Source of the DNA: Pandoraea anhela
GTDB lineage: Bacteria > Pseudomonadota > Gammaproteobacteria > Burkholderiales > Burkholderiaceae
Direction of reading: 5' to 3'
Assembly (NCBI RefSeq): GCF_902459655.1
Contig: NZ_CABPSB010000021.1
Span: 29,815-93,814 of the forward strand
DNA length: 64,000 bases
In this document: one piece after another, positions 28,277 through 63,046 of the stretch
Position numbering within the stretch: position 1 is the stretch's first letter
How the letters are laid out: every line of letters starts with the position of its first letter
Program-made: the position numbers and the translations under genes
The notes under the pieces: model-generated
The model's input: only the letters and a program-made list of their open reading frames with translations
Databases searched by the model: none
Told to the model about the DNA's origin: nothing

Positions 28277-30295
28277 TCAGACCTTCCGCAATGCCTGCAT
28301 CAGATACCGCGCCGGATCGATGGCGTCCGCCAGATCGCTGCCGATGGGCCACGGCTCGCCTTCGAGCTGACTGGCGACGAGTTCGGCACACAGCGACGCG
28401 AAGACCAGTCCGCGGGAGCCGAACGCAAAGCTGGCGTACAGCCCGTCCAGACGCGGCAGATCCCGCAGATGGCCGCCGGACAGACGCCGCCGCTGCGGCT
28501 CGATCGCGCGCATGTCCGGCAACTGCCCCGCCATCGGCAGACGATCGGGAGCCAGCGCCCGGAAGGCCGTGCGTCCGCCCAATTCGGCGGCGGCGCGCTC
28601 GCTGGCCAGCCCGGCGTCGCCGAAGGCTTCCGCATGAGCCGGCAGTAACGCCGCCAGCCGGCGCAGATTGGCCTGATGATCGGCCAGACGCACCGTCTCG
28701 GCGGGATCGTCGAAGCCGTACGTCGCGCCGGTGACGGGGCCTGCGCCGGCGAGCGGCGACGGAGCCACATAGCCGTCGCCGCACACGGGCACGCGAAGCG
28801 ACGGCAGCGCGTCGGGCGGCAGGAAGGTCAGTTGCCCACGCACGCGCCTGACCGGCACGAATGCCGGATCGAGGTACGGCGCGAGCAGCTTCTGCGAGAC
28901 GTCGGCGGCCGTCACCACAACCGCGTCGGCAACGGCCAGTTCGCGCCCGGTTTCGTCAAGCGCGGCCCAGCGCCCGTCGTCACGACGCACCAGCTGCGCC
29001 ACGCTCACGCCATAGCGTGCGTCGAGCGACGGACCCGCCGCGACCAGTTCCGCCCGGCAGAGCATGGCGGGCGCGAGCCAGCCACCCTCCGGATACCATA
29101 CGCCGCCGTGGGTCAGCGTTTCTCCCGCGAGCGCGGAGGCTTGCGACGCGTCGACCCATTTCGCATACGCCTCCGGATACGCGTGCGCGGCCATGAGTTG
29201 CTGCAAGGCGTGCGCCTCGGCCTCGGTAGCGGCGACCTGAAGCAGGCCGTCGGCGCGTCCGGGCAGGCCTCCCGGCAGCGTGCGCCATTGCGAGAGTGCG
29301 TAGAGAAAACCGGCGCGCGTCAGACGCGACAACACGTTGTCATCGGCCGAGAGTTGCGGATGGAAGACGCCGGCAGGGTTGCCCGACGCCGCAGTGCCCG
29401 GCGCCTGCGCCCGCTCGAAGAGCCGGACGCGCCAGCCGCGTGCCACGAGACGTCGCGCCATCGCCGCGCCCGCCATGCCCGCACCGACCACGATCGCTTC
29501 ACGCGGGTGCGACGCCCGCGGCGTGGGGGCGGCGGGCGGATCGTAGCGGCGCATGCGATACGGCGGTGCGTAGGGCCCGGCGAGCATCGAGCGTTTCGGC
29601 CCGTAACCGTGTTGGCGCGCGACCTGGAACCCGGCGGCAATCAGATCGCGCCGGACCTGTCCCACGGCGGTATATGTCGCCAGCGTCGCGCCGTCGCGCG
29701 CCAGCCGTCCCAACGTCTTGAAGATGTCCGGCGTCCAGATGTCGGGATTTTTCGACGGCGAGAAGCCGTCGAGATAGAAGGCGTCCGCCCCGACACGCAG
29801 CGACGGCAACAGCTCCGACGCATCGCCGAAGCCCACGCTCAGCACCACCCCCGGTGCGAGCTCCAGCCGGTGCCAACCCGCCACCGGCGACGGCCACATA
29901 TCGCATAACCGCTGGACGAGCGGCGCGAGTTCGGTCATGCCGGGCTGCACGAGCATCGGTTCGAGCATGCGGCGCAGATCCAGCGCGCGGAATGGATGCT
30001 TCTCGACGGAGACGAAGTGCAGTCGGGCGGGCCGCTGCGGGTCGTCGCGCCATGCGGCCCAGGTCGCGAGGAAGTTCAGCCCCAGACCGAAGCCGGTCTC
30101 GACAATGACGAATTGCCCGCGACCGCGCCAGCGCTCGGGCAAGCCGTTACCGCCGAGAAAGACGTACCGTGCCTGACCGAGTGCGCCGCCCGTGCTGTGA
30201 TAGACGTCCTCGAAGGTGTCCGAATAAGGCGTGCCGTCTTCCGTGGTCGACGGCTGCGCAGGTGTGATCGGGCCAATGCCCGGACGGCGGCTCAT
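28277..30295 (-). CDS. mnmC: Bifunctional tRNA (mnm5s2U34) methyltransferase / FAD-dependent oxidoreductase
   Basis: A 672-residue protein catalysing the last two steps of 5-methylaminomethyl-2-thiouridine synthesis at the tRNA wobble base. The N-terminal SAM-dependent methyltransferase (1-~245) shows VETGFGLGLNFLATW and AFYLDGFSPSKNPDIWT. The C-terminal FAD domain starts at ~268 with VVGAGMAGAAMARRLVARGW. MnmE, which starts the same pathway, is encoded at 41.4-42.8 kb. Its ATG overlaps the stop of the upstream ClcB-like gene (ATGA), so the two are translationally coupled. Confidence 0.95.
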   Translation of the reverse strand: MSRRPGIGPITPAQPSTTEDGTPYSDTFEDVYHSTGGALGQARYVFLGGNGLPERWRGRGQFVIVETGFGLGLNFLATWAAWRDDPQRPARLHFVSVEKHPFRALDLRRMLEPMLVQPGMTELAPLVQRLCDMWPSPVAGWHRLELAPGVVLSVGFGDASELLPSLRVGADAFYLDGFSPSKNPDIWTPDIFKTLGRLARDGATLATYTAVGQVRRDLIAAGFQVARQHGYGPKRSMLAGPYAPPYRMRRYDPPAAPTPRASHPREAIVVGAGMAGAAMARRLVARGWRVRLFERAQAPGTAASGNPAGVFHPQLSADDNVLSRLTRAGFLYALSQWRTLPGGLPGRADGLLQVAATEAEAHALQQLMAAHAYPEAYAKWVDASQASALAGETLTHGGVWYPEGGWLAPAMLCRAELVAAGPSLDARYGVSVAQLVRRDDGRWAALDETGRELAVADAVVVTAADVSQKLLAPYLDPAFVPVRRVRGQLTFLPPDALPSLRVPVCGDGYVAPSPLAGAGPVTGATYGFDDPAETVRLADHQANLRRLAALLPAHAEAFGDAGLASERAAAELGGRTAFRALAPDRLPMAGQLPDMRAIEPQRRRLSGGHLRDLPRLDGLYASFAFGSRGLVFASLCAELVASQLEGEPWPIGSDLADAIDPARYLMQALRKV

Positions 30296-44989: not shown

Positions 44990-45427
44990 CTAACTACCTT
45001 CCGTCTTGTCGTCAGAGGCGCGGCGCTTGCGGGCAGCCTTTTCGGCTGCGTCGAAGAGCTGCGCGAACTCGGTCTGGCACAGTGTGTTCAACACTGGCGC
45101 GGCCGCCGCTGTATACGTCCCCTTGTCGAAACGCCGGGTCAGTCGCAACACGAAGTCCCAGCCATCGAGCGCCGCCCGACGCTGACGGAACATCTCGCGC
45201 GCCTGACGTTTGATCAGGTTGCGAGTGACCGCACGCGGTGCGTGCTTCTTACCGACGACAATGCCGATGCGGCCTTGTTGAGGCGAGGCATCGGCAGAGG
45301 TGTCCGGCGCAGCTTCGCGCCGGCGCATATACAACACGAAGTGCGCGCTACGGCGCAGGGGGCGCAAACTAAAAACGGATGAAAACTCATCCGTTTTGAG
45401 AAGTCTGGCAGCTTTGGGAAACCCCAA
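44990..45427 (-). CDS. rnpA: Ribonuclease P protein component
   Basis: 145 residues if TTG 45427 is used, where homology begins ([19 protein letters not shown]). Longer in-frame starts reach 45550 into rpmH. The RnpA core is present: [33 protein letters not shown]. It binds RNase P RNA and processes tRNA 5' ends. The start codon is uncertain because no ATG is in frame near the homology start. Confidence 0.93.
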
Positions 45428-45488
45428 TGCCGGGACTTCGCGCCTTGCGGACTTAACGCGCAAACCGCAGTACGACCGAGAACCGCGA

Positions 45489-45623
45489 TCAGACGGCCAG
45501 GCGCTTACGGCCCTTGGCGCGACGAGCGGCGATGACCTTGCGGCCACCACGGGTCTTCATGCGAACCAGGAAGCCATGGGTGCGCTTGCGGCGCGTCACG
45601 GAAGGCTGAAAAGTACGTTTCAT
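45489..45623 (-). CDS. rpmH: 50S ribosomal protein L34
   Basis: 44 residues, [20 protein letters not shown]... ending GRKRLAV, the standard L34 length and sequence. It is the first gene of the rpmH-rnpA-yidD-yidC-mnmE cluster, divergent from dnaA. Confidence 0.98.
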
Positions 45624-46441
45624 GATGCACTCACTGTGTGAAAAAATTCCCGCGCAGCAGCATCGTAAAACGCCACAAGAACACCGTGAAAACCTGCAAA
45701 TTCAAGGACTTTCACGCGCGTCCCAGCCGTCGGGAGTTGGATAGGAATCCGGTTATCTTTCTAACGAACCCGCTATTTAATCGGCTTTTCCGTTGTGTGT
45801 CAATAGGTTAGCCATCGCCCCCACGGCGCCTGCACACGATCGGTGCTCCGGTTGTCGCGGATTCGCCAACTGGGCGCCTCAAGCCTGTGGATAATGGCGG
45901 GAATTGCCCGTTTACTCAATGATTGCCAGTGGATAAATGGGGATGTGGGCAAATTTCCCGCTCGTCGCGGCAAATCGTCGCAATTGCCGGGCATTTGCGC
46001 AGGCATCGTGCGAAGGCAGGCGGGTTAACGCGGCGCGTCCGCCCGGAGATGCGCATGCTGTGGGCATTCCTGTGGATAACTCGCTTTGCCGCCGCTTTGG
46101 CGGTAAAATCCCCCATCAATTTTTTTCCCCGCAGAGTACCGGTGACGTCGCCATGTGGATAGCGCGCCGGGTTTTGTCGTCTGCGCGCGCCGCAGGAGCC
46201 GGCCGCACGCGCGAGATCAAACCCGAACGCAGCGCCGTGGTTCGTCTCGCGCCGGACATCTGCAATGCGCCGCTGGTCCGACTCGACTTCTGCCGATTGC
46301 CCGTCACAACCCCTTGGGAGGACGGATGACCGGCTTGGTTTGGCTGCTTTCGTCCCCATATCCGAAGTAACGGAGAGTAGACGGAACGAGTGCCAGACCG
46401 AGGTCGTCGGATGGGCCCCGCGCCACCTGGACACACGCTGC
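45624..46441. other. rpmH-dnaA intergenic region with DnaA boxes
   Basis: 818 bp without a supportable gene. DnaA boxes: TGTGGATAA at 45886-45894 and 46071-46079, and the near match AGTGGATAA at 45928-45936. This divergent rpmH/dnaA position is the classical bacterial origin site, so it competes with 24771-25065 as oriC. It also holds the divergent promoters; the boxes may serve dnaA autoregulation. Confidence 0.7.
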
Positions 46442-47980
46442 ATGAACGATTTCTGGCAACACTGCGCGACTCGCCTCGAACAAGAGCTCACGCCCCAGCA
46501 ATTCCGCACCTGGATCAAACCGCTGGCGCCGCTCGACTTCGACGAACAGGCGCGCACGCTCAAGATCGGCGCGCCTAACCGCTTCAAGCTGGATTGGGTA
46601 AAGAGCCAGTTCTCGGGGCGCATCCAGAGTATGGCGTCGGACTATTGGAACGCCCCGGTCGAGGTGACGTTCGTGCTCGACCCGAAGGCCGGCGTGCGCG
46701 TGCCCTCGTCGACCCCTGCCCCCGCCCCCGCCCCGAGCGCATCGCCTGCGCCCGTGTCGGCGAGTGGTGCGCGTGCCAACGCGGCCGCTGCCGCAGCGCA
46801 GGCGGCGGTCGCCGGCGCCAACGGTGGCCATGCGGATACGGCGTCGCTCGATGGGGAGCGTCCGGATCTGGAGGCGAGCGAGGCCGAGGCGGTGCGCCGC
46901 AACTGGCGCGTGACGCCGCAAGAGCCCGTTCAGGTCGGCGAAGTGGAGTCGATCTATGAGCGCTCGAAGCTCAACCCGGTGCTGACCTTCGACAACTTCG
47001 TGACCGGTAAGTCGAACCAGTTGGCGCGCGCGGCGGCGATTCAGGTCGCGAACAACCCGGGCACGTCGTACAACCCGTTGTTTCTGTACGGGGGCGTCGG
47101 TCTCGGTAAGACGCACTTGATCCACGCCATCGGCAACCAGTTGCTGGCGGAAAAGCAGAACCCGCGCATTCGCTACATCCACGCCGAGCAGTACGTGTCC
47201 GACGTGGTCAAGGCTTACCAACGCAAGGCGTTCGACGAATTCAAGCGTTACTACCATTCGCTCGATCTGCTGCTGATCGACGATATTCAGTTCTTTTCGG
47301 GCAAGAGCCGTACGCAGGAAGAATTCTTCTATGCGTTCGAGGCGCTGATCGCGAACCGTGCGCAGGTGATCATCACGAGCGACACGTATCCGAAGGAAAT
47401 CACCGGCATCGACGATCGCCTGATTTCGCGTTTCGATTCGGGGCTGACGGTGGCCATCGAGCCGCCTGAGCTTGAAATGCGCGTGGCGATCCTGATTAAG
47501 AAGGCGCAGGCGGAAGGCGTGGGATTGTCGGAGGACGTGGCGTTCTTCGTCGGTAAGCATCTGCGCTCGAACGTCCGCGAACTGGAGGGCGCGCTGCGCA
47601 AGATCCTCGCGTACTCGAAGTTCCATGGCCGCGAAATCACGATCGAACTGACAAAGGAAGCGCTGAAAGATCTGTTGACGGTTCAGAATCGTCAGATTTC
47701 TGTCGAGAACATCCAAAAGACGGTCGCCGATTTTTACAATATCAAGGTCGCCGACATGTATTCGAAAAAGCGGCCTGCCAATATTGCGCGGCCGCGGCAG
47801 ATTGCGATGTACCTGGCGAAGGAGCTGACGCAGAAGAGCTTGCCGGAAATCGGCGAACTGTTCGGCGGACGCGACCATACGACCGTGCTGCACGCGGTGC
47901 GCAAGATTGCAGAAGAGCGGGGCAAGGACGCGCAGCTCAACCACGAGTTGCACGTGCTGGAGCAGACGCTCAAGGGGTAA
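46442..47980 (+). CDS. dnaA: Chromosomal replication initiator protein DnaA
   Basis: 512 residues. Domain I (1-~80) starts [28 protein letters not shown]. An Ala/Pro-rich linker (~85-150) precedes the AAA+ domain with Walker [10 protein letters not shown] (~217) and Walker [10 protein letters not shown] (~278). Domain IV ends with the DNA-binding signature [18 protein letters not shown] 46442 is the classical start; upstream in-frame sequence is not conserved. It heads dnaA-dnaN-gyrB. Confidence 0.98.
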
Positions 47981-48255
47981 AGGACGGGGCGCAAGACCGG
48001 TAACGATCGGCGTCACAGCCGACGAATTCGCGGGGCGTCGGGCGGGGTTGCCCGGGTCCCTGTGGATAAGCGGGGTGCGGTTTGGGGGGAACTGGGGTTT
48101 TCGGGCACAATAGCGGATCGGCGCACAATGCGTCCCCGGCTCGTCCACAGCGTTTTCCGCCCTGTTATCCCGTCTGCAAGTGATTGATTGATAAGGGAAT
48201 CTTCGGGTTTTCAGCAGAAGCTGGCACCCGTTAACAGTTACTACGAAGGATAAAT
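47981..48255. other. dnaA-dnaN intergenic region
   Basis: 275 bp non-coding. It contains one perfect DnaA box, TGTGGATAA, at 48061-48069. AAGGATAAAT precedes the dnaN ATG as ribosome site. Confidence 0.55.
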
Positions 48256-49362
48256 ATGCAATTGGTCAAAACTCAACGAGACAATCTGCTGCGGCCGCTG
48301 CAAATTGTGAGTGGCATCGTCGAGCGTCGCCACACGTTGCCGATTCTGGCCAATTTGCTCATTCGCAAGCACGGACAGGACATTTCCTTCCTCTCGACGG
48401 ACCTGGAGTTGCAGATCACGACCACCGCTGATTGCGGTGCCGGCGCCGATGATGTGGCGACGACCGTGGCTGCGCGCAAGCTGCTCGACATCCTGCGCAA
48501 CATGCCGGACGCCGAAGTGGCGCTGTCGCTGTCGGACAAGCGTCTGACGGTGCAGGCCGGCAAGAGCCGCTTCCAGTTGCAGACGCTGGCGGCCGAAGAT
48601 TTCCCGACGGTGGCGGAGGCCAACGACTACGCGGCGAGCTTTGCGCTGCCGCAGCGTGCGTTCCGCCAGTTGCTGGGCATGGTGCACTTCGCGATGGCCC
48701 AGCAGGACATCCGTTACTACCTGAACGGCATGCTGCTGGTGGTCGAGGGCGAGAAGATCGAAGCGGTGGCCACGGACGGTCACCGTCTGGCGTACTGCAA
48801 CACGACGATCGCGGGCGAGAAGTTCGCACGTCAGGAAGTGATCATCCCGCGCAAGACGATTCTCGAGTTGCAGCGTTTGCTCGAAGACATCGACGATCCG
48901 GTGCAGATCGATGTGGCGCCGAGCCAGGTCAAGTTCCGTTTCGCGAACGTCGAGCTGGTGTCGAAGCTGGTCGAGGGCAAGTTCCCCGACTTCAATCGTG
49001 TGATCCCGAAGGGTTACAACAAGAGCTTCGTGATCAGCCGTGAAGAGCTGCATCGCTCGTTGCAACGCGCGGCGATCGTCACGTCGGACAAGTTCAAGGG
49101 TGTGCGTTTCCTGGTGAGCGAAAACCAGTTGAAGATCAGCGCGAACAACACCGAAAACGAAGAAGCGCAGGAAGAAATCGAGATCGATTACACGGGCGAG
49201 TCGGTGGATATCGGCTTTAACGTGACGTATCTGCTCGACGTGTTGTCGAACCTCAAGGTCGAGCAAGTGAAGGTGAGTCTCGGCGACGCCAATTCGAGCG
49301 CGCTGATTACCCTGCCGGACAACGACGAATTCAAGTACGTCGTCATGCCGATGCGCATCTGA
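48256..49362 (+). CDS. dnaN: DNA polymerase III beta subunit (sliding clamp)
   Basis: 368 residues of three repeated clamp domains. It starts MQLVKTQRDNLLRPLQIVSGIVERRHTLPILANLL and ends DDEFKYVVMPMRI-like, a classic DnaN C-terminus. Dimeric ring that tethers polymerase to DNA and recruits other factors. Standard place between dnaA and gyrB. Confidence 0.98.
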   Translation: MQLVKTQRDNLLRPLQIVSGIVERRHTLPILANLLIRKHGQDISFLSTDLELQITTTADCGAGADDVATTVAARKLLDILRNMPDAEVALSLSDKRLTVQAGKSRFQLQTLAAEDFPTVAEANDYAASFALPQRAFRQLLGMVHFAMAQQDIRYYLNGMLLVVEGEKIEAVATDGHRLAYCNTTIAGEKFARQEVIIPRKTILELQRLLEDIDDPVQIDVAPSQVKFRFANVELVSKLVEGKFPDFNRVIPKGYNKSFVISREELHRSLQRAAIVTSDKFKGVRFLVSENQLKISANNTENEEAQEEIEIDYTGESVDIGFNVTYLLDVLSNLKVEQVKVSLGDANSSALITLPDNDEFKYVVMPMRI

Positions 49363-49522
49363 GCGGATTTTTCCGCCATACGCGCCGTCACATATGCGCG
49401 AAGGGGCCGAGCGCCCCTTTGGCGTTTCTAGAGAATTATCCTTTTGCGGGATAAGCAGCCTTCGGAGCGTCAAGCGCGCGCGGGGGGCGGCAGGTCATGA
49501 AGCAGTAATTCGTCAGAAATGA

Positions 49523-52021
<2,499 letters not shown>

Positions 52022-53247: not shown

Positions 53248-54210
53248 ATGACAAAGGCTAATAGCAGCTTTAGTGCGTTACTGGACCCAATTCAAGGTAT
53301 CGACAATGTGCTGAAGGAAGTGACAGCGACTCCGCCGCTTGAGCAACCTCGGCTTCTTTTTGTTCGCATGCAAGAGCATATTCCGCAAGTTGAGGCGCTT
53401 GCGGAATTGCTAGTTGACCAGCTCGTTAACTACGTCATTCCTCTTCGTAAGCGGAGAGAGGCCTTCGTCCAGAGTGGAGGCTCGGCCACGGGCGGTGATA
53501 TGTCCGTGGTGTCCCGACTTCGCCGTGAGGCCAGGCGACTCCTGATTTCGTACAACCAAAAGCACCCAGGACGTTACGGCGAAGTTGGCGAGCTCATCGC
53601 TTACGTTGTAGCAGTGAGATACCTTGGTGCGGCGCAACTTGGTGCGAAGATGGCGCTCAAGACATCATCCGAAATGCCGGTGCATGGCGTTGATGGATTG
53701 CATGGCAGTCAGGCTGACGACGGGTCGCTCCTCTTCTACCTACTAGAGTCGAAGCTCATCCCGAGCGCGACCGATGCCTCGCGAGAGATGGTCGATTCAA
53801 TTGCGGAGCATCAGGCCGACCGTGGACGTATGCTGAACGAACTCCGACTTGTTAGCGACCTATCTAACTTGGACTGTTTGGAGGGAGACGCACGAGAGGC
53901 GGCAAAGTCGTTTTTTAATTCCTACATTGGTGACGGTAGCCATCTCCGGCGTCGCGACGTCCATGTCGGTAGCCTTGTCTTCAGCGAGAGCGCTTTCCAA
54001 GACAAGCTGCCACGTGACTTGAAGAAGCCGCCGGAGATTCATGAGGAACATCTTGAGAGGCTGTACGTAGCCAAACACGACACGTTCAGCAAGAATCTGA
54101 AAAACCAAGCCGAGGCGAAAGGGGTCGACCTTGGGGGATGCGTCGTTTTTTTGATTGCTATACCTGATGTAAATGAATTCAAGCGAATCTTTGCCGAGTT
54201 GAACACATGA
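53248..54210 (+). CDS. hamA: Hachiman system nuclease subunit HamA (DUF1837)
   Basis: 320 residues with the DUF1837 (HamA C-terminal) fold. A PD-(D/E)xK-like catalytic set is visible: GEVGEL (~111-116), HGVDG (146-150) and ESKL (167-170). In Hachiman, HamA is a nuclease held in check by HamB. The start has GAGG 8 nt upstream. Its stop overlaps the hamB ATG by 4 bp (ATGA), the expected coupled pair. Composition is more AT-rich than the core genome. Confidence 0.9.
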   Translation: MTKANSSFSALLDPIQGIDNVLKEVTATPPLEQPRLLFVRMQEHIPQVEALAELLVDQLVNYVIPLRKRREAFVQSGGSATGGDMSVVSRLRREARRLLISYNQKHPGRYGEVGELIAYVVAVRYLGAAQLGAKMALKTSSEMPVHGVDGLHGSQADDGSLLFYLLESKLIPSATDASREMVDSIAEHQADRGRMLNELRLVSDLSNLDCLEGDAREAAKSFFNSYIGDGSHLRRRDVHVGSLVFSESAFQDKLPRDLKKPPEIHEEHLERLYVAKHDTFSKNLKNQAEAKGVDLGGCVVFLIAIPDVNEFKRIFAELNT

Positions 54211-56834
54211 GCGCATTCGCCACCGAAGTTGCGATTGAAATCCGGAGGGAACCGGGTTTTTGGAGCGACCTTGCCGGACTTCGCGCGGTCGGCATTCGGT
54301 CTACCGTGCTGCGTGAAAATCAGCAGGTTCGCGTTGCCGGACCGATTCTTGCTGAAAAGGCTCTGACGCGTCTGCTCAATACCGCGAGTGTGTTCGCATC
54401 AGCTACAGACGAAGAGAGCAAGGAGCTGGCTCAACAGATTGCAGTATTCGCTAGCTTGGCATCGGATGACGAAGTGATTCGTGAAGCCAGCGTCCGCATT
54501 CTTTCTGACCTCGGTAACTTCCCTGGTCTTCGGAAGCTGGAAATTGACCACCCTGCCGAACTCGGCTTTGAAGCCCACATGCGCCTGGGATTACTCAGGG
54601 AGCTCAATACGGTCGACATTGCTGGCGAGCGTGTCCCGCTGACCGAATACCAACTCGACCTCTGGCGAAGCTTGGACTCGTCTTCGGCTACAGCAGTTTC
54701 TGCGCCGACCTCGTCTGGAAAATCCTTCGTCGTACTCGAGCACTTGTCTGAGCGTGCAATTGCGGCCGACCGTTTTGGCGCAATTTACATCGCACCGACA
54801 CGAGCGTTGCTGACTGAGATTCACGGCAAGCTGGAAAAACGCCTATCGAACATTTCCGAATCCATCCGAATCACGACCATCCCGGTTCCGGACCCAGAGA
54901 GTCGTCCCAAACAGATTTACGTGTTGACGCAGGAGCGGGCGCAGTTTCTATTGTCGACGGTGGCGGTTGCCGGTCTGATTGACCTTGTCATTTCCGACGA
55001 AGCACAGTCTCTCGGTGATGACAGCCGCGGCATGATTTTGCAGGACACTCTTGAGAAGTTGCGCGAGTCAAATCCCGCTGCTCGCTTCCTGTTTTTGGCT
55101 CCCGGAGCCTCCGGCCTCCAGCTAATTGGAGACAGTATCGGCTTGCAAAGCATTGAGGTGAAGGAAACAACCCTATCGCCCGTAGTGCAAAATCGGATAA
55201 GTGTGGGGTTTTCCAATCTCGACGAACATCTGGTGAGTCTTGACCTAGTTACTCCGAAGAAGCTTGAGCCCATTGGTACATATCAGTTCAAACGTGGGTT
55301 CGCGTTAAGCGACGATACGAAGCTCGCGGCGGTCGCACTAGAATTGGGTGCATCGGGCAGGTCTTTGGTCTATGCCACGGGAGCGAAGAACGCGGAAGAC
55401 CTGACGGAACTGCTCGCGCGCAATCGAGAGCCCAGAGCCTCACAGGGACTATCAGACTTAGCGAAATTCATCGAACAACACATTCACAGACAATACTCCC
55501 TAGCAAATTATGTTCGTCAAGGCGTCGCATTCCACTATGGAAACATGCCGAGCCTCTTGCGCGAAGGCGTTGAGGCTGCATTCAAGCGTGGCGAACTGGA
55601 TTACCTTTGTTGCACGACGACGCTGTTTCAAGGCGTAAATCTTCCCGCGCGGAATGTCTTCATTGATACACCGACTCGCGGTAGAGGTGCTGCGCTTGAT
55701 GAAGCCGCGCTCTGGAATTTCGCTGGTCGTGCTGGTCGTCTTGGTGAGGAGGTGGTGGGCAATGTGTTCCTTGTGGATTACGAAAACTGGGAGACGAAAC
55801 CGCTGACCGAGCGTAAGCCGTTTGAAATTAAGGCGGCCTTCAAACAGACCGTAGAGACGGATTTTGACGCGGTCGCTGAGCGGCTCCGGGCCGCCGTGAA
55901 CAAAGCTTACATTGTCGAGCGTGACCGCGCGTCTGAGGACCGGATTACTGCTGCGGCAGGTCTAATTCTCTTTCGTTCGTCCCAGAAGACATTGGACGGG
56001 TTGTTGGGGCGACGGAGCCTCACACTGACTAACGAGCAAAAAGAAAACCTTACGAAACTAGCCGACCAAGCGCTTATGAGCCTTGAGTTACCTGCTTCCG
56101 TTTTGACCACAAGCTGGATGCTTGACCCAGTTGCGCTCGCAAGCCTTCTGCAGCGGATTCGTGAACTTGTGCGTCAACGTGACTTCTCGAAAGTGATGCC
56201 TTCGAATCCTTCGAGTGATGCATACACGGTGTACAACTCTATTATCCGTCGGCTTTACAAGTATCTGGGAGGCATGTCCCTCTCTGGGGAGGAGGGGAGG
56301 AGACAGCGGGGCTATGTTAGCCATGTGACCGTCACGGCGTTGAAGTGGATGAGAGGCGAGCCGTTGACGCAGCTGGTCGCTGAAGCCGTGAAGTACAAGA
56401 AGAAGGTGGCGCAGCAAACAAGTCAACGGCCCCTTTCTCAGGCTGCTATCGATGGGGCCATCCGTGACATGTTTACGCTTATTGAGCAAACGATTCGATT
56501 CAAGCTTGTCCAGTGGGCGAAGGCTTACGTCGACCTTCTCAAATACGCCCTTGCCAAAGAGGGACTCGACGAAATGGTCGCTCAAGTCTACGATTTCTCG
56601 TTGGCACTTGAGCTCGGGGTGTCAACGCGCACCGGTCGCTCGTTAGTGGAGTTCGGCTTGTCTCGTATCACAGCTGCCGCAATGGCTTCGCTGATTACGG
56701 ATTCATCACTGAGCTCAGACCAGGTTCGTGGCTGGTTCCTGCAGCAACCAGTGTCGCTGATACAGCAAATGTCACCGTTGGTAGTGGCTGAATTGCGTGA
56801 GCGTGGTCTCATTTCGGTCGAGTACCCGGCTTGA
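54207..56834 (+). CDS. hamB: Hachiman system helicase subunit HamB
   Basis: 875 residues of an SF2 helicase. Walker A APTSSGKSF lies at ~165-173, and motif II is DEAQ (~264-267) rather than DEAD/DEAH. The second RecA domain has GNMPSLLREGVEAAFKRGELDYLCCTTTLFQGVNLPARN and motif VI NFAGRAGRLGEEV. A long C-terminal helical region follows. With HamA it forms the anti-phage Hachiman complex, which acts on damaged or phage DNA. Start ATG overlaps the hamA stop. No inactivating change seen. Confidence 0.9.
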   Translation: MSAFATEVAIEIRREPGFWSDLAGLRAVGIRSTVLRENQQVRVAGPILAEKALTRLLNTASVFASATDEESKELAQQIAVFASLASDDEVIREASVRILSDLGNFPGLRKLEIDHPAELGFEAHMRLGLLRELNTVDIAGERVPLTEYQLDLWRSLDSSSATAVSAPTSSGKSFVVLEHLSERAIAADRFGAIYIAPTRALLTEIHGKLEKRLSNISESIRITTIPVPDPESRPKQIYVLTQERAQFLLSTVAVAGLIDLVISDEAQSLGDDSRGMILQDTLEKLRESNPAARFLFLAPGASGLQLIGDSIGLQSIEVKETTLSPVVQNRISVGFSNLDEHLVSLDLVTPKKLEPIGTYQFKRGFALSDDTKLAAVALELGASGRSLVYATGAKNAEDLTELLARNREPRASQGLSDLAKFIEQHIHRQYSLANYVRQGVAFHYGNMPSLLREGVEAAFKRGELDYLCCTTTLFQGVNLPARNVFIDTPTRGRGAALDEAALWNFAGRAGRLGEEVVGNVFLVDYENWETKPLTERKPFEIKAAFKQTVETDFDAVAERLRAAVNKAYIVERDRASEDRITAAAGLILFRSSQKTLDGLLGRRSLTLTNEQKENLTKLADQALMSLELPASVLTTSWMLDPVALASLLQRIRELVRQRDFSKVMPSNPSSDAYTVYNSIIRRLYKYLGGMSLSGEEGRRQRGYVSHVTVTALKWMRGEPLTQLVAEAVKYKKKVAQQTSQRPLSQAAIDGAIRDMFTLIEQTIRFKLVQWAKAYVDLLKYALAKEGLDEMVAQVYDFSLALELGVSTRTGRSLVEFGLSRITAAAMASLITDSSLSSDQVRGWFLQQPVSLIQQMSPLVVAELRERGLISVEYPA

Positions 56835-57749: not shown

Positions 57750-59555
57750 ATGTTTCCAAAGAGCATGCTTGAGCGGTTCAAAGTCGCGAAGTCGCGTGAG
57801 ACGCTTGCGATGCTACTTGACATAAAGCATAAAGACCTGACGTATCTTCTCTACGTAAAAAAAGACGTAGAAAAATACTCCGTGTTTTCGATGGCCAAAA
57901 AGAACGGCGGGAGCAGAGATATTTGTGCCCCTATACCCGAGCTAAAATCGCTACAGCGTAAACTTGCGACAGCTTTGGAGCGATGTATAGCTGATGTCGA
58001 GACGATAACAAAGAAAAATAATAAAGCATCTCACGGCTTCCGTCCGGGAAAAAGCATTCTCACAAATGCCGCAGTTCACCGAAATCGGCGATACGTTTTC
58101 AATGTCGACCTTCAAGACTTCTTTTCTAGTATTACTGGAAAGAGGATTCGAGGTTTTCTAATTAAAGATAGGAATTTCGCGTTTGATGCGAGTGTCGCGA
58201 CGGCCATTGCTCACATAGCTTGCCGAGAAGGAAAACTACCTCAAGGCAGCCCGTGTTCACCCGTCATTTCAAACATGATTGCTGGAGTTCTGGACGTCCA
58301 TTTGGCTAAGTTGGCTCAGATGCACGGTTGCACCTACACCAGGTACGCGGATGACTTGACGTTTTCTACAAACAAAGAAGACTTCCCCGTGGAGATTGCG
58401 TTCCGAAATGATTCCACCGGACACACTTGGCGGGTTGGTGCGGAGCTCAATCGACTAATTTTGCAAAGCGGGTTTTCGATAAATGAAACGAAAACCCGAA
58501 TGCAGTATCGAGATTCGAGACAGCAAGTCACTGGACTTGTTGTGAACAAGAAGGTGAACGTCAGCACTGAGTATCGGTATCTAGTGAGGGCGTATGTAGC
58601 TTCTCTCGTTAAGAATGGAACATTTACGGTCAAACGCCAGGCTGTGGGCGTGGATGGCAAGCCGCAAACGTTGGAGGAGGAAGGAGTTACGGCAAAGCTT
58701 CACGGGATGTTAGGTTTTATCCATTCTGTGGATAGCGTCTTCCGTACGGATGTCAAGAAACATCCGTACAACTATCCTGGACAGCAAGCCAATGAGAAGA
58801 AACCTACGGGAAATCTAGCCATCTATCGACGCTTCCTTATTTACACTCGATTCTATGCGAACACAGTGCCACTCATCGTGTGCGAGGGGAAGACGGATGG
58901 CGTTTATATCAGCAATGCGGTGCATCAAACAAAGAATATCTTCCCCAGCTTGGTTAGAAAGGATGGCGAGGGGAAAGACGTGTTGTCTTTTCAACTCCTA
59001 AAGTACGCTCGTAAACATAAGAAAAGAAAGACGGTCCATCTTCCCAATTACTCCACTATCACTATCCTTGGAGGCGGAAGTGGTGGAGGGGCAAATTTAG
59101 GGAATTTGATTCGCGCTTATCACAGTGAGTTGAGTAAATTCAAGGCTCCTAGAGGTAAGCAGCCGGTAATCTTTATCGTTGACAACGATAGCGGCGGCAA
59201 AACTGTCTTCAAGGTAGTGAAAGACACATTGAAGATGACGATTATAGGAACAGAATCTTTTGTACATTTGTTCGCCAACCTGTATGTTGTGCCGGTACCG
59301 TTAGGCGAGGATAAGGAGCGAAGTATTGAGGGTCTTTTTGCGCCTATAGACCTCGCCAAGGGCCTAAACGGGAAACCCTTTGACTTCTCGTCCGATTCAA
59401 GTTCTGGTACATCAGTTGGTAAGGCCGATTTTGCTTACGAATTTGTCGCCAAGCATGCAAACGAGCTCGATTGGGCGGGTTTCCATCCGCTCCTAGAAAA
59501 CATAGTGGGGGCAATGGACGACTACGCAGAGCGCGTGCGGGCTGCCGACCTTTGA
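57750..59555 (+). CDS. Retron Ec67-type reverse transcriptase-TOPRIM fusion
   Basis: 601 residues. The retron-specific NAxxH motif is NAAVH (106-110), the RT palm has D120 (FNVDLQDFF), LPQGSPCSP (163-171), YADD (199-202), and the retron VTG motif is at 260-262. A C-terminal TOPRIM domain carries the conserved Glu in VCEGKTD (377-383) and DND (478-480), so RT and putative effector are fused, as in retron Ec67 (type I-C). The RT copies the adjacent msd RNA into multicopy ssDNA; the TOPRIM nuclease would act when the retron is triggered by phage. ATG 57750; an SD-like GAGG lies in the a2 repeat. Low GC. Confidence 0.93.
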   Translation: MFPKSMLERFKVAKSRETLAMLLDIKHKDLTYLLYVKKDVEKYSVFSMAKKNGGSRDICAPIPELKSLQRKLATALERCIADVETITKKNNKASHGFRPGKSILTNAAVHRNRRYVFNVDLQDFFSSITGKRIRGFLIKDRNFAFDASVATAIAHIACREGKLPQGSPCSPVISNMIAGVLDVHLAKLAQMHGCTYTRYADDLTFSTNKEDFPVEIAFRNDSTGHTWRVGAELNRLILQSGFSINETKTRMQYRDSRQQVTGLVVNKKVNVSTEYRYLVRAYVASLVKNGTFTVKRQAVGVDGKPQTLEEEGVTAKLHGMLGFIHSVDSVFRTDVKKHPYNYPGQQANEKKPTGNLAIYRRFLIYTRFYANTVPLIVCEGKTDGVYISNAVHQTKNIFPSLVRKDGEGKDVLSFQLLKYARKHKKRKTVHLPNYSTITILGGGSGGGANLGNLIRAYHSELSKFKAPRGKQPVIFIVDNDSGGKTVFKVVKDTLKMTIIGTESFVHLFANLYVVPVPLGEDKERSIEGLFAPIDLAKGLNGKPFDFSSDSSSGTSVGKADFAYEFVAKHANELDWAGFHPLLENIVGAMDDYAERVRAADL

Positions 59556-59962: not shown

Positions 59963-60628
59963 CTAAACGCCAAGTGTCAATTGCGATTGCGCGCCCACAG
60001 TGGCTCGACGCCAGAGCCAGGCATCGAAGTCACGACGACGCAAGGAAAGAAGGTCGGCTGCGCAGCAGAATGATTTGCGCAGAAAATGGTAATCGTCGTT
60101 ATTAACGCCAACCGTTTTGGCGAACGTTCGAACGTGGCGGTCAACCGCAATTGAGTCCACGCCTACGAGACATGCCATGTAGTCGACTGTCTTTGGGCCG
60201 ATGCCGTTGACTGTTTGAACGGCCTCGCAAAACTCATCCGTCAGCAATTCGGCACGTAAATCCTCGACGTCCTCAACGCCCCTTCCCCTTAGAAAATAGA
60301 CCAGCGATTCGAAGCGAGTCACCTTTTCGTGGTGTTGCCAATTCAGGAAGGAGCTGGTTCTGCCATCTTCAATCAATCGAATTAACGAGGAAATCGTTTG
60401 GCGATTAGGATGTGCGCGTAAGACGGCCAGCACTCGAGGGCGCACGACCGTCACATAATTGAGGCCAGCTTGGAGCACCGAGTCCGCGAGGACTGCCCCT
60501 AGGTGCTCACACGTGGCGCGCGAAGGCGTCTCGTCAACGAGGGCGCCCTCCCCCGCTGCATGGTCGGCAATTCGACGCGCGGCGAGTAATACTTCGATGG
60601 TGGACCCTGCGGCCCCAATCCTACTCAT
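59963..60628 (-). CDS. OGG-like HhH-GPD family DNA glycosylase-like protein
   Basis: 221 residues from ATG 60628, which overlaps the queC-like stop (ATGA). The helix-hairpin-helix is NGIGPKTVDYMACLVG (141-156) with Lys146 at the position of the catalytic Lys of OGG and EndoIII. A downstream Asp (VDRHV, D163) is the conserved GPD Asp. No C-terminal 4Fe-4S Cys cluster of the EndoIII type is seen. OGG-like proteins are one of the ancillary proteins of type IV CBASS (Cap11). Role here is inferred; it is the last gene of the four-gene operon. Confidence 0.8.
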   Translation of the reverse strand: MSRIGAAGSTIEVLLAARRIADHAAGEGALVDETPSRATCEHLGAVLADSVLQAGLNYVTVVRPRVLAVLRAHPNRQTISSLIRLIEDGRTSSFLNWQHHEKVTRFESLVYFLRGRGVEDVEDLRAELLTDEFCEAVQTVNGIGPKTVDYMACLVGVDSIAVDRHVRTFAKTVGVNNDDYHFLRKSFCCAADLLSLRRRDFDAWLWRRATVGAQSQLTLGV

Positions 60629-61245
60629 ACTAGCCTTGCCTCTTTCAACGCATTCAGTCGTTCGACGCAATTTGGACATGCCCCGCACGGAAATTGAGCT
60701 GAAGCCTGGCATGAGTATGTCCGTCCAATGGGTACACCGAGTGATGCGGCGGAACTCGCCACATCTACCTTGGATGAGTAGCGAAACGGCGAGTGAAAGC
60801 GGACCGGTCCAACACTCGAGGTGAGCTCATCGAGACTATTCATAAACGAGGCAGTGCAGTCAATCTCTTTAGCGTGGTTGCTATTGATGAATCCAGTATA
60901 GACATCCAGAATACCGACCGTTTGCGCGCGCGCAGCAGCAGCAGCGAAAAACAACATTGTTCGGTACGGGATGTACAAGTCGTCGTCCTTGACCTCTTCA
61001 GTCCAGAGGTCCGCCTCACGAATGAGTCTCGACTGAGACCCTCTGAAAATGTCCGATATGTTGAAGCGCTCAGGACGTCGCATATCGGTAGGAAGGACTT
61101 CGTTAACTCGATTCCACTCGACTTCTACGCAGTGTTGTCCGTAGTCAAAAAAGATTGGTGTGACATCCACGCCTGCAGCCGCAAGTTGATATCCCACTGT
61201 CGTCGAATCTAGGCCGCCGGAAGCCAAAAGTAGCGCTTTCCTCAT
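60625..61245 (-). CDS. QueC-like 7-cyano-7-deazaguanine synthase family protein
   Basis: 206 residues. A PP-loop SGGLDSTT lies at 9-16, YIPYRTMLFFAAAAARA at 91-107, a DC pair at 129-130 and a Zn-binding Cys set C-x7-C-x2-C-x2-C (C179, C187, C190, C193), as in QueC. QueC makes preQ0 from carboxydeazaguanine with ATP. No queD, queE or queF is nearby, so a housekeeping queuosine role is unlikely. QueC-like Cap9 is a type IV CBASS partner. Overlaps both neighbours by 4 bp. Confidence 0.85.
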   Translation of the reverse strand: MRKALLLASGGLDSTTVGYQLAAAGVDVTPIFFDYGQHCVEVEWNRVNEVLPTDMRRPERFNISDIFRGSQSRLIREADLWTEEVKDDDLYIPYRTMLFFAAAAARAQTVGILDVYTGFINSNHAKEIDCTASFMNSLDELTSSVGPVRFHSPFRYSSKVDVASSAASLGVPIGRTYSCQASAQFPCGACPNCVERLNALKEARLV

Positions 61246-62573
61246 AAGAACTTACTCCTCAGTCTGGCCACCGCTTCAAAGATTCCATTAAGACATGTGT
61301 CGAGTTCCGCGGAGTATACCGAACTTCCAACCATGACCATCGTGTTCTCGTTTTCCATGCGGGGGTCGAAGGTGATAACGGGCTTGCCCATAGCGATTGC
61401 CATGCCGATTTCGACGAGCGTACCTGGGTCGCGGCCCAGCGGAACGGCAAAGACCACGTCGCATGCTTGCAGAAGCTGATAATCCAAAAGATAAGTTCGG
61501 CGCAAGGCGCCTTCGCTTGCTGGGCGCTTTAGCTCGCCATTCGCGAGAATAGGACGTCGCACGCTGAAGTTGTGATAGACAAGGCTGTCTGCCGCGCGGT
61601 CAAGTTCATGCTTCTCTACGTAAGAAAAGTCCGGGCCCGCAAGATAGACGGCGTAACGCGGTCTGTCGTGCCACGGGAGTACTGTGCCTCCAAGTGCTCT
61701 AAGCGTTTCAAGCGGAAGCAACAGACCTCTTTGGACATCGCACCGAATGTCGTCAGGAAACGTTGACTGGGAGTACGCGGTCGCGGCTTGGCAGCCGCGC
61801 CACGCCGCCTCGGTCCATCCTCGCCGCGAAAGACCTATGAGCACTGCCGAAAAAACATCGCCAACGCCTACAGAATTAGCAGTGCGCCCCAGCGCAGCGG
61901 GAATGTGCTCTACCCGACAGTCAGGAAAGCTGAACAGGCGGCTGCCACCACGATTTTCCTTCAATAGAAAAACCTCGGGTCCGAGTGCTCTTACTGCAGA
62001 GACGAGCTCGTCTACGTTTTGATGCCCAAGCTTCGCGAAGAGCGAAGACGACGTGGAAATGATGACGGCGTCTAATCGTCCGATGAACGTACTCAGTGTG
62101 GTCAGTTCGTCTAGGTCGTACGCGATATCAAAAGAGAAGCGCGCCTTCTCGGAGAACGCATCGACGAATTCTCGTATGTCGAACTGTCCGGGGAACACCA
62201 GTACATTAGGATAAGCATCAAGTGACGGTACGGGGCGGTGAAGTATTGCTTTCTTCGTGTCGCGCATTAAGTCTTCATAGCCTTGATGCGCAACTTCAGT
62301 CGCGTCACTGATAAGCATAACGTTCGGCGCGCCGACGACTTCACCAAGCCAAATGAACTCCTTGCACCCGCATCCTGCGAGGTAGCGCTTGGCTTCGTCG
62401 ACGAGATATTGCGGGCAGAATGCGGCCACGGAAAAATCGAGTCCCGTAGCCCAAAGTCCCCTCGCGGCGTGTGCGACACCGCCTAAGCGAAGTTTGCAGT
62501 TTGCACCGGTACGCGCAAATGTATAGTCGACAACAAGCTCCCCGACAAGAAGTAAGGCTTCTGTTTGGGACAT
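61242..62573 (-). CDS. PfkB-family kinase fused to nucleoside 2-deoxyribosyltransferase-like domain
   Basis: 443 residues in two parts. Residues 1-~290 are a PfkB/ribokinase fold with a GGVAHAARGL sugar-binding segment (~31-40) and NSVGVGD (233-239), where the usual GAGD anion-hole is GVGD. Residues ~305-443 are a nucleoside 2-deoxyribosyltransferase (NDT/DNPH-like) domain with YLAGPDF (310-316), DVVFAVPLGRDPGTLVEIG and the likely nucleophile Glu388. The fusion joins sugar phosphorylation to base exchange or N-glycosidic cleavage of deoxynucleotides. Substrates unknown. Starts 2 nt after the preceding gene. Confidence 0.8.
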   Translation of the reverse strand: MSQTEALLLVGELVVDYTFARTGANCKLRLGGVAHAARGLWATGLDFSVAAFCPQYLVDEAKRYLAGCGCKEFIWLGEVVGAPNVMLISDATEVAHQGYEDLMRDTKKAILHRPVPSLDAYPNVLVFPGQFDIREFVDAFSEKARFSFDIAYDLDELTTLSTFIGRLDAVIISTSSSLFAKLGHQNVDELVSAVRALGPEVFLLKENRGGSRLFSFPDCRVEHIPAALGRTANSVGVGDVFSAVLIGLSRRGWTEAAWRGCQAATAYSQSTFPDDIRCDVQRGLLLPLETLRALGGTVLPWHDRPRYAVYLAGPDFSYVEKHELDRAADSLVYHNFSVRRPILANGELKRPASEGALRRTYLLDYQLLQACDVVFAVPLGRDPGTLVEIGMAIAMGKPVITFDPRMENENTMVMVGSSVYSAELDTCLNGIFEAVARLRSKFL

Positions 62574-62575
62574 GA

Positions 62576-62956
62576 TTATTGAGCGACGAAATCGGCCTCG
62601 ACCGTCGGAACCGGCGCGGTTGCTGACAAGCTAACTACGCCAACATAAGCGACGCCGCTTGCCAAGCACGCCACGAGGTAATTGAACGACGTTGGAAGCG
62701 CGCCTACCTTTACGCCGTTAGCGTCGACGGCGAAAACTCGCTTACCATCAAAGGCAATACTCAATTGAGTGGCGACAGCCGGAACATTATTGAATTGAGA
62801 ATAGAAATCGCTGTTTCCGACGTCATCCAAGAGCGCGTGGAAGGCCTGCTGGCATCTGTCCAATCCGCTAGCACCCCCCGCCACACCGGTGCCGTCAACG
62901 TCCTTCGCTTTCGTACCAGGATAATCTGAAAATGAACCAGAACCCGAGCTGCCCAT
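62576..62956 (-). CDS. Small protein with Met-Gly-Ser-Ser N-terminus, first gene of the operon
   Basis: 126 residues from ATG 62956, chosen because GGGGG lies ~5 nt upstream; a 23-residue longer frame from 63025 has poor support. It begins MGSSGSGSFSDYPG, so removal of Met would expose an N-terminal Gly. The rest is rich in small and aliphatic residues (GALPTSFNYLVACLASGVAYVGVVS, ending PTVEADFVAQ). I recognise no domain. It has no nucleotidyltransferase motif, so it is not a CD-NTase. The Gly/Ser-rich head may be a flexible modification site; this is inference. Confidence 0.75.
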   Translation of the reverse strand: MGSSGSGSFSDYPGTKAKDVDGTGVAGGASGLDRCQQAFHALLDDVGNSDFYSQFNNVPAVATQLSIAFDGKRVFAVDANGVKVGALPTSFNYLVACLASGVAYVGVVSLSATAPVPTVEADFVAQ

Positions 62957-63016: not shown

Positions 63017-63046
63017 AGTGTACAAGAGCAGAAACTAGCTTGCCAA
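63017..63046 (-). promoter_or_regulatory. Candidate promoter of the QueC operon
   Basis: On the minus strand TTGGCA (63041-63046) and TACACT (63017-63022) with an 18-bp spacer, about 60 nt upstream of the first start codon. Reasonable sigma-70 match. Confidence 0.55.

Follow-up and report, generated by a model that had tools for sequence, protein, structure and literature searches.

A candidate anti-phage operon pairing a QueC-like enzyme with a Gly-start small protein in Pandoraea anhela and other bacteria

In type IV cyclic-oligonucleotide-based antiphage signalling systems (CBASS), the CD-NTase starts with an MGGS tail whose Gly2 bears a 7-deazaguanine tag, and in the QueC-family ligase Cap9 an Asp reads the edge of the base while a Tyr stacks on it (accessible text of PMC13279940, here and below). 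In Qat, the tail of QatB is unstructured and begins MGTS; the substitution G2D abolishes defence, and the identity of the group attached by QatC is left open there (PMC13279940). The PF06508 ‘Cluster 4’ QueC nearly always neighbours a fusion of PfkB and nucleoside deoxyribosyltransferase (NDT), and has been linked to purine salvage (accessible text of PMC13329287, here and below). We describe here a four-gene operon that resembles all three, found on the minus strand of a 64,000-nt stretch of Pandoraea anhela DNA (the window; assembly GCF_902459655.1, contig NZ_CABPSB010000021.1, forward-strand positions 29,815 to 93,814). It encodes, in order, a small protein, a PfkB-NDT fusion, a QueC-like PP-loop ligase and an OGG-like HhH glycosylase. 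It is most likely a new system of the QueC protein-tagging kind; its best reading is as a putative sister to type IV CBASS (Cap9) and Qat, member of neither and outside Cluster 4.

An earlier, sequence-only reading of the window had proposed these genes as an undescribed system, tightly packed within a defence island, and its coordinates and spacings were borne out by open reading frame (ORF) analysis. The small protein (62576–62956, minus strand, as are all operon genes) has 126 residues from an ATG start, and comprises a tail, MGSSGSGSFSDY, a Gly-rich linker and a C-terminal domain. Two nucleotides downstream lies the 443-residue PfkB-NDT gene (61242–62573), followed after a 4-bp overlap by the gene for the QueC-like ligase (60625–61245; 206 residues; PF06508, E = 2.7e-30), and after a further 4-bp overlap by the OGG-like gene (59963–60628; 221 residues), for which the ATG at 60628 is preferred to the mechanical ORF start at 60712. 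The gene identities given earlier likewise held: the NDT domain (fusion residues 309–408, 61350–61649) matched PF05014 (E = 1.3e-15) and the glycosylase matched PADLOC OGG (E = 1.1e-6).

A scan of 84,980 species genomes with a PfkB-NDT alignment gave 65 loci, and viral contigs gave a further 12; both figures are lower bounds because the scan relies on two short peptide patterns. Judged with four seed profiles, 60 of the 65 genome loci are complete, the genes running from the small protein through PfkB-NDT and the QueC-like gene to the OGG-like one; conservation of this order was part of the check named with the earlier proposal. Of the remaining five, contig ends truncate four (L019, L051, L066, L067) and the fifth (L058) appears disrupted. 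Ten of the 12 viral-contig loci carry all four genes in order, including L082, in which the small gene is cut and the PfkB-NDT frame interrupted; the other two (L077, L079) are cut. Hosts include alpha-, beta-, gamma- and ‘delta’-proteobacteria, Bacteroidota, Cloacimonadota and TM6, and the operon is carried on some plasmid records as well as on viral contigs. No match to it was found in a phage collection or an E. coli collection. Median spacings across 57 operons, with starts chosen by script, were 0, −4 and −4 nt. The ratio of non-synonymous to synonymous substitution rates was 0–0.26 in 26 of 28 values (seven pairs, four genes each; two not computable), indicating purifying selection, with some pairs near saturation at synonymous sites. 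Given the repeated order, the four genes are a recurrent discrete unit, beyond chance.

Damaged copies were also seen. In L058 the PfkB-NDT match ends at residue 346 and neither a QueC nor an OGG gene was found; in L008 the small protein is without its N-terminal motif. Paraburkholderia phenazinium LMG 2247 has operon pieces at three contig ends (L019, L066, L067), two of them alike, which suggests either that the copy is repeated or that the repeat arose in assembly.

The small protein of the window, whose family was unknown to the earlier reader, gave no match above the curated cut-offs of Pfam or NCBIfam, nor did PADLOC match it. Starts were chosen with a loose pattern (Gly or Ser as residue 2, and [FLIY]x[DN]Y within about 12 residues), which 76 of 78 small-protein ORFs fit, near-copies included; the exceptions are L008, whose N-terminus is lost, and L082, which is cut. 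Gly2 is present in 75 of these 76 ORFs as started, and L026 has it too if translation is taken to begin three codons later. The strict tail consensus M-G-S-[S/T]-G-S-G-x-[F/L]-[S/T]-D-Y (62921–62956 in the window) is found in 60 of the 76, or 46 of 59 non-redundant sequences. All 59 have Gly2, and Y12, C35 and C97 are also invariant among them, the invariance of Y12 owing in part to selection by the start-choosing pattern. The tail is better conserved than the linker, where most of residues 15–26 vary. This layout of Gly2, conserved tail and folded part is that of QatB and the CBASS CD-NTase (PMC13279940), and we propose the small protein as the acceptor of an N-terminal modification.

The folded part is possibly HIRAN-like, and this we treat as a lead. 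Set against eight HIRAN (PF08797) sequences, which had been selected by eye at 11 loci, it reached an hhalign probability of 68, or 30 in global mode. Forty column-permuted HIRAN alignments gave at most 0.9 and the reversed one 0.2; alignments of QueC, OGG, PfkB-NDT and dGTPase gave at most 1.7; and 60 unrelated small ORFs, which as single sequences are a weaker control, gave at most 1.6. Counting against the likeness, HIRAN was a family chosen by hand for the comparison, and a Pfam scan of the 59 small proteins did not call a HIRAN domain. An S-layer match was rejected, being two weak repeats with E above 1 for each alone.

The QueC-like protein matched PADLOC QueC (E = 1.3e-23) and has the motifs SGGLDS and PYR, the zinc set C(x)7CxxCxxC foreseen from the sequence, and E127-I-D129-C130 replacing YPDC. 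Its profile found Cap9 as the best solved match (9nto_B, E = 3.2e-17), barely ahead of QueC itself (2pg3, E = 1.9e-16). SGGxDS is present in all 72 distinct QueC-like sequences and the zinc set in 71, the exception (L079) being cut at a contig end. The spacings YxQ(x)5E and C(x)7CxxCxxC printed for Cap9 (PMC13329287) are identical in the QueC-like proteins.

The other two enzymes are similarly preserved. The PfkB part of the fusion is weak in a single sequence (E = 0.056) and moderate by profile, where it matches sugar kinases (E = 7e-5 to 9e-4). An alignment of 43 sequences, two of them Cluster 4 proteins, shows PfkB Asp239 (GxGD) and NDT Glu388 (DPGTLVE) conserved throughout; among 70 distinct sequences, a count that leaves out six cut or broken copies and two Cluster 4 loci, GxGD is found in 70 and DPGTxxE in 69. 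The best solved relatives of the OGG profile are 8-oxoguanine glycosylases (E = 1.8e-5), and the HhH-GPD site keeps its Lys146 and Asp163 in 34 of 34 sequences in one count and 69 of 69 in another. We take the GxGD Asp, the DPGTxxE Glu and the HhH-GPD Lys and Asp to be catalytic.

Type IV CBASS includes an OGG-like protein, Cap11, and thus shares with the operon QueC-like and OGG-like genes, as well as a defence context and an acceptor with a flexible Gly2 N-terminus. It differs in that the acceptor there is the CD-NTase, here the proposed small protein, and in that the operon has PfkB-NDT where CBASS has the TGT-like Cap10; none of the four proteins matched a TGT family in Pfam, PADLOC or NCBIfam. 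Cap9 has Y-x-D-C, whereas the operon enzyme has E-x-D-C, with the Asp and the PP-loop kept. A search of the window's genome (6.05-Mb assembly, 99.98% complete) with PF18144, the SMODS-type CD-NTase family, gave no match, in keeping with the earlier remark that no CD-NTase is visible; PF18144 misses some type IV CD-NTases, being found in 67% of Cap9 neighbourhoods (PMC13329287). Membership of type IV CBASS was rejected on the grounds that there is no SMODS CD-NTase match in the window's genome, no TGT family among the four proteins, and E-x-D-C in the ligase. Qat is alike in pairing a QueC-family enzyme with a protein of unassigned function that has an essential Gly-start tail (PMC13279940). 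It differs in that the operon is without the QatA ATPase and the QatD TatD gene, and its QueC-like protein has 206 residues against about 400 and no QatC-type extensions; the QatC model scored that protein at 12.4 bits, against a cut-off of 280.

Cluster 4 shares the adjoining PfkB-NDT and QueC genes. In each of the eight Cluster 4 plasmid loci inspected (L006, L007, L085–L090) a small protein lies directly upstream, starting mostly MSGSG and otherwise MSGPG or MSSGD, and these proteins are homologous to that of the operon (hhalign probability 96.8). OGG-like genes lie near four of the eight (E = 7e-6, 0.001, 0.006 and 0.02) and dGTPases near three; none of the small-protein, OGG-like and dGTPase partners is mentioned in the accessible text of PMC13329287. 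The operon's small proteins start MGS, whereas those of Cluster 4 start MSG or MSS; the zinc motif is C(x)7CxxCxxC in the operon and CH(x)5CxxCxGCxK in all eight Cluster 4 loci; and the operon QueCs branch apart from those of Cluster 4 as a clade of their own (100/99 support), in a tree where long branches meet. On the clade and the zinc motif, membership of Cluster 4 was rejected. The claim that the system is undescribed thus stands in part: it is separate by motif and tree, but the pairing of QueC with PfkB-NDT is already in print (PMC13329287), and because Cluster 4 is a published relative the operon is less isolated than had been held. In the literature within reach (titles and abstracts, with most subscription journals outside it), no paper on the operon was recognised beyond the QueC papers.

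The neighbourhoods are rich in defence genes. With PADLOC at 1e-10, 150 ORFs from 53 loci, drawn from 334 neighbour ORFs of 56 loci, matched 304 families; canonical queC is flanked by 202 ORFs in 20 of the 29 host genomes that have it, and the 150 of these that were scanned matched 14 families, QueC itself being one. This tally is a rough measure because PADLOC models are redundant. The control ORFs around canonical queC (L093–L112) included one match each to DpdA and DpdB, of DNA 7-deazaguanine modification. Using a search profile built from three Cluster 4 dGTPases, we found that 10 of 62 genome loci (L013, L020, L022, L026, L042, L043, L049, L054, L060, L065) have a dGTPase-family gene no more than 0.9 kb away, the duplicates L023, L025 and L070, which likewise carry dGTPase, having been dropped. 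These genes lie upstream or downstream of the operon on either strand; those of L020, L022 and L054 are of one lineage (73–93% identity) and the others are mutually 22–49% identical. None was found beside 20 canonical queC loci or 40 HsdR loci (746 kb), so that the comparison is 10/62 with 0/60 (Fisher p = 0.0013). HamB, tried as a defence control, was found in 5 of 299 genomes and was not used.

By analogy with Cap9 and Qat, we consider it somewhat better than an even chance that the operon is an anti-phage system built on QueC-type N-terminal protein tagging; the chemical steps and phage protection are what we infer from the features above. Removal of Met, as in established N-terminal processing, would leave Gly2 exposed at the start of the small protein's flexible tail. 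The QueC-like enzyme, with its complete PP-loop and zinc motif, would by homology adenylate a carboxylated purine-like base and join it to Gly2, the model for this ligation being Cap9 acting on the CBASS CD-NTase. Deoxyguanosine-type nucleosides would be the substrates of PfkB-NDT, and of dGTPase where present; the OGG-like glycosylase would work on the base in DNA. The accessory enzymes might release the base for ligation, so that modified phage nucleotides or DNA are sensed, or might load the tag with sugar and phosphorylate it; a HIRAN-like domain would possibly carry the tagged protein to DNA ends.

Several observations weigh against this proposal. No published experiment on the operon family was found. 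dGTPases, nucleotide-depleting defence enzymes that PADLOC includes, are known defence genes in their own right; none was found in the 12 viral-contig loci or in the window, and the p value becomes 0.006 when the genes are counted as eight lineages and 0.028 when those above 40% identity are merged into six. The Cluster 4 small proteins reach a HIRAN probability of 18.8 only. The Tyr of QueC and Cap9 that stacks on 7-carboxy-7-deazaguanine (CDG) is Glu in all 72 QueC-like sequences, whereas YPDC was present in all 13 canonical QueCs recovered from the 20 control loci; because the Asp is kept and the Tyr replaced, reading of the CDG edge may persist with stacking altered. When queuosine-pathway genes were searched in the host genomes of 50 of the 65 loci, canonical QueC (above 180 bits) was matched in 29 and not in 21, and 11 of these 21 were also without QueD and QueE matches.

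The 11 hosts (G010, G011, G017, G019, G021, G023, G026, G028, G031, G033, G047) are eight named isolates, such as Defluviimonas denitrificans, Cypionkella aquatica and Pleomorphomonas oryzae, and three metagenome-assembled genomes, listed without completeness figures. Four further hosts (G009, G016, G020, G025) gave a QueD-family match and no QueC or QueE match. The QueE search overlooks some types, returning no QueE in four genomes where both QueC and QueD were matched. In six Bacteroidota hosts (L059, L061, L062, L063, L064, L068) QueD and QueE were matched and the operon's QueC was the sole full-length one found. Operon pairs from hosts without at least QueC and QueE matches (L033–L038, L035–L032, L031–L037) show the same purifying selection. 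Because the Tyr is replaced by Glu and operons are intact in hosts without CDG-pathway matches, the donor may be other than host-made CDG, or imported, or phage-derived. The 7-deazaguanines dADG, dPreQ0, dPreQ1 and dG+ occur in phage DNA, and 7-deazaguanines in bacterial DNA also (accessible text of PMC6884629); OGG, NDT and dGTPase could jointly free a base of this type.

Other accounts of the same genes have to be weighed. NDT-type effectors act in some retrons, and PfkB-NDT might similarly be a toxic effector, using up deoxynucleosides, nucleotides or NAD+ once a phage infects, with the QueC-like enzyme and small protein as its switch. The conservation of Asp239 and Glu388 across the 43 aligned sequences and the recurrence of dGTPases beside the operon both speak for this, yet taken alone it leaves unexplained the Gly2 tail, the complete QueC motifs and the constant OGG-like gene, and we judge it unlikely. 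Quite improbable, in our view, is a reading in which the small, possibly HIRAN-like protein would become a protein-deoxynucleotide: the QueC-like enzyme would link a deazaguanine-type base to Gly2, NDT would add deoxyribose and PfkB would phosphorylate it, so that a base-linked deoxynucleoside monophosphate analogue poisons or tags phage DNA synthesis; dGTPase, where present, would supply deoxyguanosine and lower competing dGTP, and the glycosylase would clear the analogue from host DNA.

QueC, a deoxyribosyltransferase, a kinase and a glycosylase could also make up a nucleotide-modification route, in which host DNA is marked with a 7-deazaguanine-type nucleotide made or salvaged by the operon, and the glycosylase removes it from foreign or misplaced sites; such bases are known from phage as well as bacterial DNA (PMC6884629). 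We give this little credence: by Pfam, PADLOC and NCBIfam none of the four proteins is a dpdA-like inserting enzyme, such a route has no need of a small protein whose N-terminus is conserved, and CDG synthesis genes were not found in 11 of the 50 hosts. PfkB and NDT are salvage-type enzymes, and purine salvage or metabolic regulation has been proposed for Cluster 4 (PMC13329287), but the defence-rich neighbourhoods, carriage on some plasmid records and on viral contigs, and a Gly tail of the type required in Qat and CBASS make this role for the operon quite improbable. Housekeeping synthesis of preQ0 or queuosine is strongly disfavoured and has almost no likelihood: the ligase is a PF06508 member and the sole full-length QueC-family match in 21 of the 50 hosts, yet it scores 93.1 bits against TIGR00364, the NCBIfam QueC model (cut-off 150.3), and YPDC is lost in all 72 sequences. 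The window's genome has its own queC-queE-queD cluster elsewhere, on which a queuosine housekeeping role was rejected; the sequence-only reading had argued against such a role too, there being no queD, queE or queF adjacent.

The defence island follows a gyrB-like gene, and the operon adjoins HamA, HamB and a retron RT-Toprim gene there, which agrees with the setting first described. HamA (53248–54210, plus strand) forms a Hachiman pair with HamB (54207–56834, plus strand; PADLOC), which it overlaps by 4 bp, and the retron-type reverse transcriptase (RT)-Toprim fusion lies at 57750–59555, plus strand (PADLOC RT-Toprim_I-C, E = 8.9e-202; NCBIfam retron_Ec67_fus). Genes named by eye as rnpA-, dnaA-, dnaN- and gyrB-like stand directly before the island at 44990–52021, so that the island is seemingly near the replication origin. 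Upstream of the operon is a promoter-like site, TTGGCA-18-TACACT (63017–63046, minus strand), a consensus match only; the region has four such sites against 2.7 expected, which is not significant alone. The contig stops at the window end, 1044 nt upstream of the operon.

If the tagging proposal is true, the operon would bring the number of QueC-based immune systems to three, and its acceptor protein would be new; hosts without CDG synthesis matches would serve as a test of which group ligases of the QueC family attach in the absence of host-made CDG. N-terminal nucleobase tagging would then be a modular strategy used across several phyla, and one tied here to the deoxynucleotide enzymes NDT, PfkB, dGTPase and OGG.

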